Positions 3 through 5,672 of a stretch of DNA of 5,672 bases are shown here, one piece after another; the first letter of the stretch is position 1; each line of letters opens with the position of its first letter. Below the pieces are notes generated by a model. That model searched no databases, was not told where the DNA came from, and saw only the letters and a list, made by a program, of their open reading frames with translations. Both the position numbers and the translations under genes were made by a program. This DNA comes from Deltaproteobacteria bacterium (lineage in GTDB: Bacteria > Desulfobacterota > Dissulfuribacteria > Dissulfuribacterales > UBA3076): NCBI GenBank assembly GCA_013138705.1, contig WTCF01000234.1, forward strand, positions 1 through 5,672. The letters run 5' to 3'.

Positions 3-1004
3 CTGCCGGTCCCCCGGATATCCCGGCCTTGTTTCACTGCTTATGCCGTATCATCAAGTAAGTTCAATCAGAAAAATGTTGGGGGCAAATCCAACAACCT
101 GAGGCACTTGCAGGGCAAGTTGCCGGAATGGATAGGTCTTCCCAATTCAGTGGCCATGCCGTTCGGGATCTTTGAAAAGGTGCTTGCTGAGAAAAACAAC
201 AAGGAAATTACCGGGCATTATAATGAACTGATGCTGCGAATAGATAAAAATGCCGAAAAGGTGGATGTAGAGGTACTGAGTGAACTCCGTAAGACCATTC
301 TGGGTCTTGAGGCACCGGATGAGCTGGTCTCTGAGCTTCATGGGGTGATGGATGAGGCAGGGCTTCCGTGGCCCTCAAACTGGGAAGTTGCCTGGACATG
401 TATCAAGGGCGTATGGGGCTCCAAATGGAACGAGAGGGCACATCTAAGCCGCAGGACAAGAGGTATCCCCCATGCGGATCTCTTCATGGCAGTGCTCATT
501 CAAGAGGTGGTCGAGGCTGATTACAGTTTTGTGATCCACACCGTTAATCCCTCTACAGGCAACAGGGATGAGATCTATGCCGAGGTGGTCCCGGGCCTTG
601 GGGAGACATTGGTTGGCAATTATCCCGGAAAGGCCCTCAGCTTCACCTGCAGGAAGGGAAAAGATGAACCACAGCTCCTGGCTTTCCCGAGCAAGAGCGT
701 TGCCCTTTTCGGCAGCGGCCTGATCTTCCGTTCGGATTCCAATGGGGAGGATCTGGCCGGTTATGCTGGTGCCGGTCTTTACGACAGCATAATGTTGGAG
801 CCGTCAGTCAAAGTTCCTCTGGATTACACACGCGAATCGCTCGTGGGGAATGAGGATTTTCGAAAGGACTTTTTAGTCACTGTAGCCAATATCGGCGCAG
901 TTATTGAGAAAGCCATGGGCTCTCCGCAGGATATCGAAGGCGCTTACTCAAAAGGTCAATATTACGTTGTCCAGACCCGCCCCCAGGTTGGGATTGAAGA
1001 ATAG
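3..1004 (+). CDS. Alpha-glucan water dikinase, GWD1-like, C-terminal ATP-binding part (5' end outside window)
   Basis: Enzymes of this family use ATP and water to phosphorylate glucose units of alpha-glucan, releasing AMP and phosphate through a phosphohistidine intermediate. Only the last 333 residues are visible. The frame is open to the left edge, and family motifs begin before the first possible start (a TTG at 108), so the gene starts upstream. Numbering visible residues from base 3: VGGKSNN at 26-32 (nucleotide-binding Lys region), SVAMPFGIFEKVL shortly after, VWGSKWNERAHLSRR at 137-151, HTVNP from 179, GLGETLVG at 198-205, RSDSNGEDL...AGLYDS at 243-262, QDIEG at 309-313 and VQTRPQ at 323-328. 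The PWP segment before the KWNERA motif, and the RSDSNGEDL block placed after GLGETLVG, match my recollection of plant GWD1 rather than PWD, PPDK or PEP synthase. The phosphohistidine domain and any carbohydrate-binding module would lie upstream. The next gene begins 4 bases after the stop. GWD-type identity is firm; the exact substrate is inferred. Confidence -1.
   Translation: MPVPRISRPCFTAYAVSSSKFNQKNVGGKSNNLRHLQGKLPEWIGLPNSVAMPFGIFEKVLAEKNNKEITGHYNELMLRIDKNAEKVDVEVLSELRKTILGLEAPDELVSELHGVMDEAGLPWPSNWEVAWTCIKGVWGSKWNERAHLSRRTRGIPHADLFMAVLIQEVVEADYSFVIHTVNPSTGNRDEIYAEVVPGLGETLVGNYPGKALSFTCRKGKDEPQLLAFPSKSVALFGSGLIFRSDSNGEDLAGYAGAGLYDSIMLEPSVKVPLDYTRESLVGNEDFRKDFLVTVANIGAVIEKAMGSPQDIEGAYSKGQYYVVQTRPQVGIEE
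996..1000 (+). promoter_or_regulatory. Weak ribosome binding site for the TIM-barrel/dikinase fusion
   Basis: GAAGA lies 8 bases before the ATG at 1009, within the last codons of the upstream dikinase gene. It is a weak match to the Shine-Dalgarno consensus. Because the two genes are only 4 bases apart, reinitiation or coupling by ribosomes finishing the upstream gene probably matters too. It supports 1009 as the start. Confidence -1.
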
Positions 1005-1008
1005 AAAA

Positions 1009-4000
1009 ATGCGTATCCGGATCGGCAATCAGAGCGCCTTCTCGGCCTCAACAGTGACACAGCCCTTTGAGTATGCTGTGGCTGAAGGTTTTGATGCCTT
1101 TGAGTGGTTTCCCGACAAAAGGGAATCAGGGGCAGGCTGGGCAGAAGGTGATATATCTAAAGAGCAACGTGCCTTTATTAAGAAAACCGCTCTTGCCCAT
1201 GACATTCGCCTCTCGGTCCATGCTCCCTGGCAGGCAAATCCTTTAAGGCCGGAAAGTCGTGACATCTTCCTCAAAAACATTGAGTTTGCGCAAGATATCA
1301 ATGCATCGCTCATCAATATACACCTTTATACTGATGAGGGAATTGCCTCCTATGTCCAGGCCATTGTTCCCCTGATAAAAAATCTGGCAAAGGCCGGGAT
1401 CAAGCTATCTGTAGAAAATACACCGATCACCAGGCCGCAGGATTTTAATGAGTTGTTCAGACGGCTTCTAGGCCTTGACTCAACAGATACCGCCCATGTG
1501 GGAATGTGCCTGGATCTGGGACATGCCAACCTGTGTGAGGCAACCCTCAATGACTACCTCAAATTCATTGACTTGCTCGATTCCCAAGTCCCGATCATCC
1601 ATATTCACATGCACGAAAACTATGGAGACTATGACAGCCACTTGCCTCTGTTCACCGGTCCTGCAGGAAAAAATGACTCAGGCATAAAGGGATTTATAGA
1701 ACGGATGGAAAGGCGCAACTTTTCAGGCTGCGTCATCTTCGAGCAGTGGCCGGAACTACCTAGTCTGCTCAATGACGCCCGCAACAGGCTGCTCAAGATG
1801 ATCAGTATTTCAGAAAGACCTGCTGTTGAACCCGACATGGCCCCAGGGAATGATCTTGTTAAAATGATTGCAAGGGCGGACCGTAAATGCCGAAGTTGGA
1901 GGGAGAAACTTGGCTGGATTGATCACTTGCTTTCTGATGACACATTTGAGCTTAACACAGAGCAACTCATTTACCTGGCGATCTATCTCCGTTTCATAGG
2001 GACAGGTGAAATACCCTGTACTGAGGATGGGCGGCACTTTCGCCCGTCTCATCACGCAAGGATGGCGCATCACATACAGGACCGTCTGTCCAAAATTACC
2101 ACCCTGGAAAATGCATTTATCATCAGAAGAATCTATCCATGGCTTCCATCCTTCACCAGCAGTTTTACCAGGAAGGAACCGCTTACACGAATACGGGACA
2201 TTGCTCACAGAAACGATATCCCCAAGGAGCTCAAGAAGGAGATCAAGAATACGCTCCAGAACAAGCTGCATCGGTGCGCCGGCCCTGAGGACCTTGCCAC
2301 CTCGGCAGCCCTGCTTAAAAGGATAACGGCCCCGGATGCCGGTTATTCACCCGATTTCGTAAAGGAATTCAAGGAATTCCACAAGGAACTCAAGGAGTTT
2401 TTCAATACCCGCTCTTTAGAGGAACAACTTGAAGCAATGCTCAGAGAGGGCAGTGTTCATAATTCCCATACGCTCGAATTAATTCACAAGTTCCTTGAAG
2501 CCAAAGAAAAAGCACATACACCCGATGAGCTGGTAACCGGTTTCGAGCTCTTGACAATGCTTCGCAGTCAATTCAGTGAAAAACTTAAAGGGGAAACCGG
2601 CTCCAAGGGACAAGAACTCCAGATGACGGACATCGGGCTAGAGGACTTTTCTTTTGTGCTCTTGAGCCAATTGATCAACCTCTTTGATGCCTTGGGGAAA
2701 GAGATAAAATGGTCGCCGGCCTTGCGCTGCCTGAAGCTTGCAATTGAAAACTTGCGCCTCGGCGGCTTCGATACCAAAGAATGCCAGGCAATAGAATCCG
2801 AGCTGGAGGCTTGGCGCCGGGGTTTCAGGCCTCAAGACCGTGAGCATCTTATTCGGCTCAAAGCCACAATTGATCGATGCAGACGGCTGGCAGAGGTCTA
2901 CTGTAACAGAATTCTGGCCCTGTTTCCTGAAAAGGTCGAAAGGCTGGGACAGGCTCTGGGTGTGGACAGACACAAGATAAAGATCTTCTGTGAGGTGGAT
3001 ATTCGAAGCCACTTGATCTTCCAGGTCTCAAAACTCATTGCTCTCCTTTTAAAAGGCATCAGGAGGCTCGCTGCCTTGCCCCCATGGGATGTGATCGTGC
3101 CGGGCAAGACCTCCGGCCGCCTGGTAGAGGCCGCATGTATTGATGATTTACCAGGTCCTTTTGACAAAGCGATCGTAGTTCTTATGGAAAAGGTGGAAGG
3201 TGATGAGGATGTCCCTGCAGGGGTGGTCGGCCTGATTGTTGCCCATGAAACACCCCTTCTTTCACACCTTGCGGTTCGAGCCAGACAGGGGGACATCGTA
3301 TTCATCGTATGCGAAGATGCAGATCGCTATGCAGAATTAAAAAGTTTTCTTGGGAGACAGCTCATCCTGGATGTCTCTGCTGAAAAAGTGAATCTGGAAT
3401 TTTCTTCCAGCCCTGAGCAAAAAGGAGTAACTGAGAGAGAAGGGGAGGTCCGGCAGGAACGAGCCTGGGTACCTGATGTGCTCCTGTGCTCTGATCGCAA
3501 ATTGTTGCCGTTGGATCAGGTGAGACCTGCAACTGGAGGCAGCAAGGCAGATGCAGCAAGGCGGCTTGAAGATCTGTCGCAAATTGAGGAGGCAGGCTTT
3601 GTGGCATCCCCTGGAGTTGTGGTTCCTTTTGGTGTCATGCAAGAGTCACTAAAGAGGGCATCGGTCCTTGAACAAGAGTACCGGATGTTGGTCAGCCGGT
3701 TGAATGAATTGCCACAAAGCGATTTCTTTGAGGCCTTGAGGAAATTACAAGGTATTATCAGGCAGCTTGACGTACCCGATGAGATCGTCTCGGGTGTGAT
3801 GGAAAAATTCCCACGACATGAACGGCTGATGGTACGTTCCAGTGCAAACTGTGAGGATCTGGAAGGCCTGTCAGGGGCCGGACTTTACGATTCAATTCCC
3901 AATGTGTCGCCACCTGAGGTAGCTCAGGCAGTGAGAAAAGTCTGGTCATCACTATGGACCAGGCGCGCGGCATTGAGCAGGAGAAAGCTCGGTATCCCCC

Positions 4001-4458
4001 ATGATAGTGCCCACATGGCTGTGCTCATCCAGCAGATGGTTGTCCCGGAAATTTCATTCATTATGCATACTGTCAATCCTGTAGCTCAACACCAGGATGA
4101 AGTTTATGTGGAACTGGCAGCAGGTCTGGGTGAAGCGTTGACTTCCGGTAAAATCCCTGGTGTTCCTTATCGAATGGTCTGCAATAAGCGTACAGGAAGT
4201 GTATGCATGCTGGCCTTTGCAAGTTTCAGCTATGCAATATGGCCCGGCCCTTCAGGGAGTCTTATCCAAAAAACAGTGGATTATTCCAAGACAGGGCTGT
4301 CAAAAGATAAAGTTTTTAGAAATCGCTTGGGTGGCCGCCTGGGGTCAATCGGCCGATTTGTGGAAGATTCGGTGGGAATACCTCAGGATATTGAGGGGCT
4401 TGTCCTGAAAGACAAGATCTATCTGGTTCAATCACGTCCGCAGCAAGGTGTATTTTAA
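1009..4458 (+). CDS. TIM-barrel (sugar phosphate isomerase/epimerase-like) fused to a PWD-like glucan dikinase
   Basis: This is a 1149-residue two-part protein. Residues 1-270 or so form a xylose-isomerase-like TIM barrel (AP endonuclease family 2 fold). It has SVHAPW (H71), H105, VENTP (E136), CLDLGH (D169, H172), IHIHMHE (H198/H200/H202) and FEQWP (E245), so the usual Glu-Asp-His-Glu metal site appears intact. Residues of about 300-700 are helical and match the GWD central region, with QNKLHRCAGPEDL at 417-429 standing where plant GWD has a QKLHNNTSPDDV-like motif. Residues of about 710-780 are the swivelling phosphohistidine domain, with TPLLSHLAVRAR giving candidate catalytic His753. The ATP-binding domain follows: GGSK 843-846, RSSANCEDL...AGLYDS 943-962, VWSSLWTRRAALSRR 978-992, HTVNP from 1020, GLGEAL 1039-1044, QDIEG 1126-1130 and VQSRPQ 1140-1145. 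This motif order is like plant PWD (GWD3). No starch-binding module is recognisable. The ATG at 1009 is preferred over an in-frame TTG at 904, which would overlap the upstream gene by 101 bases and add 35 residues unlike the barrel. Dikinase identity is firm; the reaction of the barrel is unknown. Confidence -1.
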   Translation: MRIRIGNQSAFSASTVTQPFEYAVAEGFDAFEWFPDKRESGAGWAEGDISKEQRAFIKKTALAHDIRLSVHAPWQANPLRPESRDIFLKNIEFAQDINASLINIHLYTDEGIASYVQAIVPLIKNLAKAGIKLSVENTPITRPQDFNELFRRLLGLDSTDTAHVGMCLDLGHANLCEATLNDYLKFIDLLDSQVPIIHIHMHENYGDYDSHLPLFTGPAGKNDSGIKGFIERMERRNFSGCVIFEQWPELPSLLNDARNRLLKMISISERPAVEPDMAPGNDLVKMIARADRKCRSWREKLGWIDHLLSDDTFELNTEQLIYLAIYLRFIGTGEIPCTEDGRHFRPSHHARMAHHIQDRLSKITTLENAFIIRRIYPWLPSFTSSFTRKEPLTRIRDIAHRNDIPKELKKEIKNTLQNKLHRCAGPEDLATSAALLKRITAPDAGYSPDFVKEFKEFHKELKEFFNTRSLEEQLEAMLREGSVHNSHTLELIHKFLEAKEKAHTPDELVTGFELLTMLRSQFSEKLKGETGSKGQELQMTDIGLEDFSFVLLSQLINLFDALGKEIKWSPALRCLKLAIENLRLGGFDTKECQAIESELEAWRRGFRPQDREHLIRLKATIDRCRRLAEVYCNRILALFPEKVERLGQALGVDRHKIKIFCEVDIRSHLIFQVSKLIALLLKGIRRLAALPPWDVIVPGKTSGRLVEAACIDDLPGPFDKAIVVLMEKVEGDEDVPAGVVGLIVAHETPLLSHLAVRARQGDIVFIVCEDADRYAELKSFLGRQLILDVSAEKVNLEFSSSPEQKGVTEREGEVRQERAWVPDVLLCSDRKLLPLDQVRPATGGSKADAARRLEDLSQIEEAGFVASPGVVVPFGVMQESLKRASVLEQEYRMLVSRLNELPQSDFFEALRKLQGIIRQLDVPDEIVSGVMEKFPRHERLMVRSSANCEDLEGLSGAGLYDSIPNVSPPEVAQAVRKVWSSLWTRRAALSRRKLGIPHDSAHMAVLIQQMVVPEISFIMHTVNPVAQHQDEVYVELAAGLGEALTSGKIPGVPYRMVCNKRTGSVCMLAFASFSYAIWPGPSGSLIQKTVDYSKTGLSKDKVFRNRLGGRLGSIGRFVEDSVGIPQDIEGLVLKDKIYLVQSRPQQGVF
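2362..2400 (+). repeat. Short in-gene near-repeat encoding a charged helix
   Basis: Two perfect adjacent copies of AAGGAATTC are followed by degenerate copies (AAGGAACTC, AAGGAGTTT). They encode K-E-F/K-E-F/H/K-E-L/K-E-F at residues 452-464 of the dikinase fusion. The result is a strongly charged amphipathic helix within the helical region that links barrel and kinase. It looks like a small local duplication inside a coding region, not a mobile or regulatory repeat. Confidence -1.
4445..4450 (+). promoter_or_regulatory. Ribosome binding site for the stand-alone TIM-barrel gene
   Basis: AAGGTG, one base off AAGGAG, lies 10 bases before the ATG at 4461 and inside the end of the dikinase fusion gene. 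Together with the 2-base gap it fixes this start. Confidence -1.
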
Positions 4459-4460
4459 AA

Positions 4461-5525
4461 ATGTCAGGGATAAAGAACAATAGTCCTTTTGCTTGCCCGC
4501 CGTTGCTGGCACTTTTTCAGAAAAGGATTGATGGTGATGACGCCCTTCTGCATCTGGCCAGTCTACGTTTTAAAGAGGCAGGTCTTGGAACCGAATTTTA
4601 TGCAGTAACACCAGTGGAGCTTGTCTGGCTGTTGAAATTCAAGCCCAAGCCTGAAACCCCTGTAGTGGCTCATTTGTGCAGAGATATCAATCTGTTTGAG
4701 GAACAAGGCCGCAACATGGTCATGGATTTTGCCACAAAATTCAAAGACCGGATCTTTGGGCTGGTCATCCATGATCAAACCGAAATTGCAACCCGCTTTA
4801 ACGATTATGTGGCTGCATTGCAGGAGATAGAATCAAGATCGAAAAAGGTCCCTGGGAGCCCTTATCTTTTTGTAGAATATGCCGCGGGCCTGGAACCGGA
4901 TTTTTTTATTGAGATCTTGAAGGCAATACAAGATCTTGAACATGTGAGCGCCTGTATTGATATAGGCCATATCGGCATATGGCAAACAAGATCTGCCTAT
5001 TCACGCAGCCATCCAGGAAAGGATGTGTGCGCCATCACGCCGAATGATCCTGAACTGCCTGAGGTGGTCAGAGATGTCCAAAGTGCGGTTGATTCCGGAT
5101 TAGATGCAGTGCTTGATGTAATTCGGGCCCTTGGCCGCTTAGAAAAACCACTGCATTTTCATTTGCATGACGGGCATCCGCTTTCCACCATCAGTCCCTT
5201 TGGGGTCTCTGACCACCTGAGTTTCCTGGTTGAAATTCCCATACCTTTTGAATACAAGGGCAGAAGATCTCTTGATCCGATGTTCGGACCTTCAGGTCTT
5301 TCAAGGATCGTTACTGAATCAATGCAGTTGCCGGGTCCGGATCGAGTCTCTTTTACACTTGAGATTCATCCGGCCGAAGGAAGGCTTCCTCTTGCTAATG
5401 CCTCTCACCTGTTTAATCACTGGAGAGACAAAACAAATGCGGAAAGGATGAACTATTGGCTGTCGATTCTTGCTCAAAATTATAAACTGCTATTTGATAT
5501 AGCCGCAAAAAGGATAACGCTGTGA
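4461..5525 (+). CDS. Divergent xylose-isomerase-like TIM-barrel protein
   Basis: The 354-residue product has no signal peptide or membrane segment and is probably cytoplasmic. It shows the spaced metal-ligand pattern of the sugar phosphate isomerase/epimerase (AP endonuclease 2-like) superfamily: FVEYA (E139), CIDIGH (D167, H170), LHFHLHDGHP (H232/H234/H236, D237, H239) and FTLEIHP (E301). These are the positions expected at the C-terminal ends of barrel strands, so it is probably a divalent-metal enzyme acting on a sugar or sugar phosphate. The N-terminal third is poorly recognisable. It is not a close copy of the barrel in the preceding gene: it is longer, with an insertion of about 60 residues between the Asp and His motifs. 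The ATG at 4461 lies 2 bases after the preceding stop and has an AAGGTG Shine-Dalgarno-like sequence. The gene sits between a glucan dikinase and a GH13 enzyme, which points to a role in alpha-glucan turnover, but substrate and reaction cannot be told. Superfamily assignment is fairly confident, function is not. Confidence -1.
   Translation: MSGIKNNSPFACPPLLALFQKRIDGDDALLHLASLRFKEAGLGTEFYAVTPVELVWLLKFKPKPETPVVAHLCRDINLFEEQGRNMVMDFATKFKDRIFGLVIHDQTEIATRFNDYVAALQEIESRSKKVPGSPYLFVEYAAGLEPDFFIEILKAIQDLEHVSACIDIGHIGIWQTRSAYSRSHPGKDVCAITPNDPELPEVVRDVQSAVDSGLDAVLDVIRALGRLEKPLHFHLHDGHPLSTISPFGVSDHLSFLVEIPIPFEYKGRRSLDPMFGPSGLSRIVTESMQLPGPDRVSFTLEIHPAEGRLPLANASHLFNHWRDKTNAERMNYWLSILAQNYKLLFDIAAKRITL
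5510..5514 (+). promoter_or_regulatory. Ribosome binding site for the GH13-like gene
   Basis: AAGGA lies 7 bases before the GTG at 5522, at good spacing. It favours the GTG over the ATG at 5540, which is preceded only by A-rich coding sequence without a Shine-Dalgarno match. Confidence -1.
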
Positions 5526-5672
5526 AAAAACCTGAAAAGATGATCATCTATAACCTGTTTCCCCTATTGGCCGGAAAGTTCACAGACTGGGAAAGGCATC
5601 TATTGAGGGCATCTGAAATGGGCTTCAACTGGGTCTTTGTTAATCCCATTCAGCGTCCAGGTGAGTCGGGCA
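5522..5672 (+). CDS. Probable GH13 alpha-amylase-family enzyme, N-terminus (3' end outside window)
   Basis: Only 50 complete codons are present, with the frame open to the right edge. The visible protein has IYNLFPLLAGKFTDWERHL, then ASEMGFNWVFVNPIQRPGES. This looks like the start of a GH13 catalytic barrel: first strand, a helix placing the chain, then the 'MGF..v..nPi' second strand that leads into the substrate-binding loop. GH13 enzymes hydrolyse or transfer alpha-1,4 or alpha-1,6 glucan links. The catalytic Asp/Glu/Asp residues lie beyond the window, so hydrolase versus transferase cannot be decided. The GTG start overlaps the preceding stop in a GTGA junction, implying translational coupling, and it has AAGGA 7 bases upstream. 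An ATG at 5540 is the alternative start but has no good ribosome binding site. No signal peptide is seen, so the enzyme is probably cytoplasmic. Confidence -1.
   Translation, partial: MKKPEKMIIYNLFPLLAGKFTDWERHLLRASEMGFNWVFVNPIQRPGESG

Follow-up and report, generated by a model that had tools for sequence, protein, structure and literature searches.

A TIM barrel with an endonuclease IV-type metal site fused to a glucan dikinase in bacteria, a candidate for the phosphate-removing step of glucan phosphorylation

In plants, stored glucan is reversibly phosphorylated by glucan, water dikinase (GWD), phosphoglucan, water dikinase (PWD) and phosphatases of the dual-specificity phosphatase (DSP) type, SEX4 and LSF2, the dikinases carrying an N-terminal starch-binding domain, CBM45 in GWD and CBM20 in PWD. 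Such reversible phosphorylation of a stored glucan has been described mostly in plants and animals. The locus considered here, a stretch of 5,672 nucleotides (hereafter the window) of contig WTCF01000234.1 from the Deltaproteobacteria bacterium assembly GCA_013138705.1 (Dissulfuribacterales, UBA3076), holds in its gene B a TIM barrel joined to a dikinase of the GWD/PWD type, in an operon that also encodes a GWD, gene A. GWD in bacteria is not in itself new, since a tree in PMC6260743 already includes it, with some bacteria marked in the legend as possible transfers; a passage of the same paper says that until then GWD was known only from starch accumulators. The relevant passages of PMC3578206 deal with pyruvate, water dikinase and with glycogen and not with GWD.

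Dikinase and barrel are both of known kinds; what appears new, as far as the searches of an open-licence library go, is their fusion and a barrel family linked to GWD, no description of either having been found there. The initial annotation, made from the sequence alone, knew of no described enzyme with this architecture, and these searches found none, but copies are numerous in sequence databases, where they go under 'TIM barrel protein' or 'phosphoglucan,water dikinase'. It is proposed here, tentatively and with somewhat less than even confidence, that the barrel may be a phosphoesterase removing or editing the phosphate added by the dikinases.

A barrel-dikinase fusion in one reading frame

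Gene B runs uninterrupted from an ATG at 1009 to the stop at 4456-4458 and encodes a product of 1149 amino acids (aa), divided as follows.

1009..1818, + strand: residues 1-270, AP_endonuc_2 TIM barrel (Pfam, conservation, PDB profile alignment, AlphaFold2)
1819..3063, + strand: residues 271-685, helical region (full-length model; weak GWD match)
3064..3453, + strand: residues 686-815, phosphohistidine domain with H753 (GWD1_pHisD; conservation of H753)
3559..4455, + strand: residues 851-1149, ATP-binding domain (PPDK_N; PDB matches)

Pfam matches cover residues 20-249 (AP_endonuc_2, E 1.1e-21), 693-799 (GWD1_pHisD, E 3.9e-24; 84.9 bits, cut-off 27) and 856-1146 (PPDK_N, E 1.2e-36; 127.1 bits, cut-off 27), and the barrel alone, with 82 bits, passes the AP_endonuc_2 (PF01261) gathering cut-off of 31.1. 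AlphaFold2 folds the barrel both by itself (predicted local distance difference test, pLDDT, 86.6; predicted template modelling score, pTM, 0.88) and within the full-length protein (pLDDT 87.2, pTM 0.71), where an all-helical part extends from about 281 to 688. The succession of barrel, helical region, phosphohistidine domain and ATP-binding domain that the initial annotation had read from the letters is borne out.

A search of 5.8 billion proteins, with 7989 candidates scored, gave 1202 matches to gene B, of which 120 are listed; all 120 listed (1130-1531 aa) combine AP_endonuc_2, GWD1_pHisD and PPDK_N, and with the window protein they make up the 121 fusions referred to below. Their named sources are Desulfobacterales, Deltaproteobacteria, Nitrospirota, Scalindua and Sulfobium. 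Three homologues cover 100% of gene B at 92, 89 and 85% identity (1153, 1149 and 1149 aa), and a scan of genomes for homologues yielded 19 loci, the closest being L001 (a metagenome-assembled genome, MAG, of UBA3076; 92%) and L002 (a MAG labelled SeepSRB2; 89%). The homologue is a single open reading frame on the L002 contig; on L001 it is read from residue 27, at the contig start. Because of the full-coverage homologues, the MAG contigs with one open reading frame and the three domains in all listed proteins, an assembly artefact is rejected, a join or missed stop at 1780-1900 is not supported, and the fusion is confirmed as real.

The dikinase half is very probably active, to judge from its domain families and invariant motif residues. 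H753 is conserved in 121/121 fusions, and R943, D1127, E1129, Q1141 and R1143 of the ATP-binding domain, whose motif roles we take over from pyruvate, phosphate dikinase (PPDK), are invariant across 71 rows. Best PDB matches of this domain are the ATP-binding domains of rifampin phosphotransferase and phosphoenolpyruvate synthase. Helical residues 574-685 match the potato GWD structure 9ha9 weakly (E 0.29), and the helical regions of genes A and B give BLAST matches of 22-25% at some loci. As no starch-binding domain was detected in gene B by Pfam at E 1, the protein is classed as a GWD/PWD-type dikinase and not as PWD or GWD proper; the JGI names are 'alpha-glucan,water dikinase' for the A type and 'phosphoglucan,water dikinase' for the B type.

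The metal site and family placement of the barrel

Nine residues of the barrel, H71, H105, E136, D169, H172, H200, D209, H211 and E245, line up with those of the three-metal site in endonuclease IV; a PDB profile alignment places them in register with endonuclease IV 5zhz, and all nine are invariant in 121/121 fusions. The ligands named in the initial annotation (E136, D169, H198/H200/H202, E245) are where it had put them, but its list was incomplete, lacking H71, H105, H172, D209 and H211, which are also invariant; its contention that intact ligands argue for an active site gains from this conservation. Among short homologues (202-464 aa), the nine are intact in 118 of the 120 listed, and the two failing proteins, of 202 and 243 aa, have gaps at the sites, one of them also Q at 209.

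The Pfam family AP_endonuc_2 includes isomerases as well as endonuclease IV, and our best guess from sequence comparison places the gene B barrel on the endonuclease IV/CbiR/MJ1311 side of it. E. coli Nfo has 9/9 site residues in common with the barrel, and the only NCBIfam models matching at E 0.01 are CbiR (E 2.5e-10; 40.3 bits, below its cut-off of 105) and DNase IV (E 1e-4; 22.1 bits, below its cut-off of 244). In the fold comparison MJ1311 comes top, followed by ketose 3-epimerases and AP endonucleases at close spacing; this ranking does not decide the function of the barrel.

Instead of a phosphoesterase, the barrel could be an enzyme that isomerises or epimerises sugars or sugar phosphates, its substrates being reducing ends or phosphorylated sugars freed from the glucan. 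The Pfam name would agree with this, as would the Foldseek and VIA lists, mainly of ketose 3-epimerases, the source name 'sugar phosphate isomerase/epimerase' on many short homologues, and the presence of the four family-wide metal residues E136, D169, H200 and E245 (4/4 in UlaE and YcjR, 3/4 in Hyi). We nevertheless consider it unlikely: these three E. coli isomerases or epimerases share 5/9 site residues each, against the full set in endonuclease IV, a profile search of PDB sequences gives UlaE E 1 and Mycobacterium tuberculosis endonuclease IV E 0.0019, and no NCBIfam isomerase or epimerase model matched the barrel at E 0.01. The initial annotation is thus supported in part; its 'sugar-isomerase-type' label should be revised, and a sugar isomerase as the default function is downgraded because of the ligand pattern and the nearest named models.

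Co-occurrence with GWD and gene arrangements

Two phylum samples, of 247 genomes (phylum of G002) and 245 genomes (phylum of G012), mostly drafts, were compared for barrel and GWD. The barrel search alignment, A1, whose members match AP_endonuc_2 at E 1 in 11/11 cases, includes rows from G002, G010, G012 and G013, four of the 21 positive genomes, and a strong barrel was taken as a best match of 274-497 bits in a genome, against at most 56 for the rest, a limit set after seeing the data. GWD1_pHisD occurs in 4/247 genomes of the first sample, and a strong barrel in the same four; in the second, GWD is over the cut-off in 19/245, and 17 of these genomes, but no others, have a strong barrel. Over all 492 genomes, 21 have both, two have GWD only, none has the barrel only and 469 have neither (Fisher 5.9e-35, uncorrected for kinship), G323, with a GWD match below the cut-off, being counted as GWD-negative.

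The link is partly given in seven of the 21 genomes (G002, G005, G414, G424, G457, G472 and G482, with G005 counted as fused), because there the barrel sits inside the dikinase fusion; in G002 the fusion is the one protein with a pHisD match. In the remaining 14 genomes the barrel is a gene of its own, and GWD is present in every one of them (Fisher 3.2e-25, uncorrected for kinship; 9.6e-24 without G012). By our own reading of the loci the two genes are near each other in six and not near in eight, lying ~650 kb apart on one 3.27 Mb contig in G343 and on different draft contigs in the other seven. GlgA is over the cut-off in 359/492 genomes (152/247 and 207/245), and the barrel, which follows GWD, is thus not accounted for by glycogen storage alone. 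GWD was also found in 13/14 barrel genomes reached through the loci (14 of the 19, all except L009, L010, L011, L015 and L019).

Standalone barrels are found behind GWD (L008, L009, L010, L015, L016, G055, G091, G146, G400) and beside a GH13 gene (L011, L012, L014 and G449, there with GlgA and GH57 too). At L003, L004 and L006, the barrel and helical region occur without the kinase half, in genes that all end <1 kb from the contig end. Short ATP-domain-like remnants were seen by eye after the stop at L003 (behind 14471) and L006 (behind 14807), where the barrel ligands are all kept; no such stretch was seen by eye behind the L004 stop. At these first two loci the barrel seems to have outlived the kinase half, and because of this persistence and of the standalone forms it is argued that the barrel acts on its own. 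Fused and standalone barrels are intermixed in a quick tree with 90 rows, made up of one in four from each list together with 22 loci and 8 outgroup rows; some of the rows scored as 'alone', where contigs are short, may be partial genes. The tree implies 14-15 changes, of which 7-8 are forced by starred branches. A single origin of the fusion was considered, and this intermixing would speak otherwise.

Some further neighbourhoods were noted. Away from GWD, an NmrA-like protein is encoded directly upstream of a standalone barrel at L130:6090-7872, L132:6465-8238 and L134:6622-8392, and a JAB-domain gene follows in two of the three (Pfam on the L134 copies, the others grouped by BLAST). In G380 and G406 a GWD adjoins a GH13 gene (L126:6213-10688; L127:577-3621; L128:4427-9130). 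A gene of 196-230 aa lies directly upstream of a long GWD (1167-1202 aa) at L129, L131, L133, L135 and L137, its L135 copy having weak Pfam matches below cut-off.

Around gene B, the window contains three further genes.

3..1004, + strand: gene A, the final 333 aa of a glucan water dikinase with its ATP-binding domain (PPDK_N 6.5e-31); start outside the window
4461..5525, + strand: gene C, 354 aa, a second barrel, in fold family like that of gene B; 8/9 ligands in register, an Asp one residue off
5522..5672, + strand: first part of gene D, GH13 (hDGE_amylase-like), truncated where the window stops; read from the window and from the L002 homologue

Successive stops and starts from A to D overlap or lie a few bases apart, the GTG start of gene D overlapping the gene C stop. 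Gene A is 93% identical to its homologue at L002 and 75% to that at L003; the latter, complete at L003:9278-12361 (1027 aa), has Ig_N_CWD1, GWD1_pHisD and PPDK_N by Pfam, and in the helical domain it gives a match of 9.7e-99 to the potato GWD structure 9ha9. The idea that the gene B barrel sits where the plant enzymes carry their N-terminal module agrees with the GWD-type Ig domain at that position in this homologue. As an observation in its own right, L003:9278-12361 and L139:9595-12660 are full-length plant-type GWDs in bacteria. Fourteen contigs are taken to carry both a listed B and a listed A protein (120 listed each). Downstream at L002 the row consists of gene D (5955-7259; hDGE_amylase 2.5e-24, GH13), DUF4912, a GH57 branching enzyme and GlgA. 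The DUF4912 gene adjoins the GH57 branching enzyme at five glycogen loci (L002:7394-9705, L140:4032-6669, L141:1359-4023, L150:4049-6773, L152:5650-8127), and behind GlgA, on the opposite strand, L002 has a RACo (corrinoid activation) gene at 11303-12856.

Gene C matches AP_endonuc_2 at E 0.12, below cut-off, and conserves H71, H104, E139, D167, H170, H232/234/236, D251, H252 and E301 across 16 sequences. It was found in 8/32 genomes and is for this reason rejected as a general part of the system. Barrel, dikinase and barrel C form one protein at L007 and likewise in 12 of the listed fusions, 1485-1531 aa long, where the C-terminal tail can be aligned with gene C, and in G457 and G482 barrel C is fused to a GH13 hDGE-like enzyme. 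Barrel C-GH13 proteins of 788 and 781 aa are encoded at L151:7452-9818 and L152:8216-10561.

A possible phosphorylation cycle, its alternatives and known systems

In the proposed scheme, the N-terminal glucan-binding module of a GWD/PWD-type dikinase would have been replaced in gene B by a metal-dependent barrel. Gene A would phosphorylate the stored glucan first and gene B would then add more, an order suggested by analogy with the plant GWD/PWD scheme, the ATP beta-phosphate passing through H753; the barrel, kept beside the same glucan chains, would hydrolyse phosphate esters, and the operon would amount to a reversible glucan phosphorylation cycle. Phosphoester hydrolysis can be assigned to the barrel with moderate confidence because of the type of its site and its nearest named models, CbiR and DNase IV, whereas for glucan phosphate as the substrate it is the context alone (fusion, operon and co-occurrence) from which we infer. 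Confidence in the combined reading is kept below even, since the step from an endonuclease IV-like site to a phosphatase on glucan has to be inferred. It is possible, though rather doubtful, that the barrel represents a new class of glucan phosphatase outside the DSP fold, with an endonuclease IV barrel as its framework and fused to its opposing kinase in a bifunctional protein, so that GWD, a PWD-like enzyme and a phosphatase would make up a complete plant-like reversible cycle in bacteria; the barrel of gene C, which in other lineages is joined to B or to GH13, might then serve another phosphate position or link phosphate removal with trimming of the chain.

Several observations weigh against a phosphoesterase tied to GWD. 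G002 and G012, on which the two samples are centred, were picked for carrying the barrel; G009 has a barrel and no GWD match, and G380 and G406 have GWD and no strong barrel. DSPc appears at E 0.001 in 6/14 barrel genomes, over the cut-off in 4/14, in a phosphatase search that covered the DSPc family alone, and as an alternative phosphatase it is neither excluded nor general; the Pfam scan of gene B detected no DSPc domain. The loop 206-221, with D209 and H211, falls partly <50 pLDDT in both models, ketose 3-epimerases equal or outrank endonuclease IV by fold, and the CbiR match stays under its cut-off. Nor is the nine-ligand set confined to this clade: the two samples gave 56 lower-scoring, uncharacterised AP_endonuc_2 matches, and of the 39 whose loci were compared 35 carry it.

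Next to the isomerase reading already discussed, the barrel might perform other metal-dependent chemistry on glucan or its phosphate, such as phosphate migration, phosphodiester cleavage or a lyase reaction. The wider nine-ligand (MJ1311-like) group is to our knowledge uncharacterised and the paralogues here have no known function, which leaves room for it; as nothing positive points to any particular reaction, we regard it as improbable too. A non-catalytic barrel, binding glucan or serving as a scaffold where CBM20 or CBM45 would otherwise be, would suit its location, which is that of Ig_N_CWD1 in the full gene A homologue, but is very unlikely in view of the invariant metal ligands, the standalone gene not near GWD in 8/14 genomes and the persistence of the barrel where the kinase half has gone. 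A DNA repair endonuclease joined by chance would account for the endonuclease IV-type site and for one standalone copy named 'endonuclease 4' by its source, but is hardly credible beside the co-occurrence with GWD, the adjacency to glucan genes and the fusion of barrel C to GH13 in G457 and G482. An assembly or annotation artefact can be dismissed, the same three Pfam domains recurring in 120 listed homologues from several sources.

If the phosphoesterase reading is true, putting phosphate on and off glycogen would be a new way of controlling energy storage in environmental bacteria. The operon with two dikinases and the nearly one-to-one occurrence of barrel and GWD in the two phylum samples make bacterial glucan phosphorylation directly testable, with the barrel as candidate for the phosphate-removing step, and open a way to the function of the nine-ligand branch of AP_endonuc_2, which is uncharacterised.

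Compared with described systems, gene B has in common with plant GWD and PWD the GWD1_pHisD and PPDK_N domains with the conserved His, and differs from them in its nine-ligand metal barrel and in having no starch-binding domain by Pfam; its helical region is weakly GWD-like, no plant PWD sequence being among those compared. Endonuclease IV (Nfo) likewise combines a TIM barrel with a three-metal site of these nine ligands, but identity is about 15-20%, and only the gene B barrel is fused to a glucan dikinase in a glucan gene context. MJ1311 (PDB 3wqo), an archaeal protein, is D-tagatose 3-epimerase-like, has no dikinase fusion and is listed as uncharacterised. The cobamide phosphodiesterase CbiR, the nearest named NCBIfam model, belongs to the same superfamily, but the barrel falls short of that model's cut-off and no cobamide biosynthesis family was found among the 18 neighbour proteins scanned by Pfam, most neighbours lying outside the scan. 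PMC7733943 reports phosphodiester hydrolysis by CbiR, with little or no activity left when many of the conserved residues were mutated. SEX4, LSF2 and laforin remove phosphate from glucan, the very role proposed for the barrel, but they have the DSP fold.

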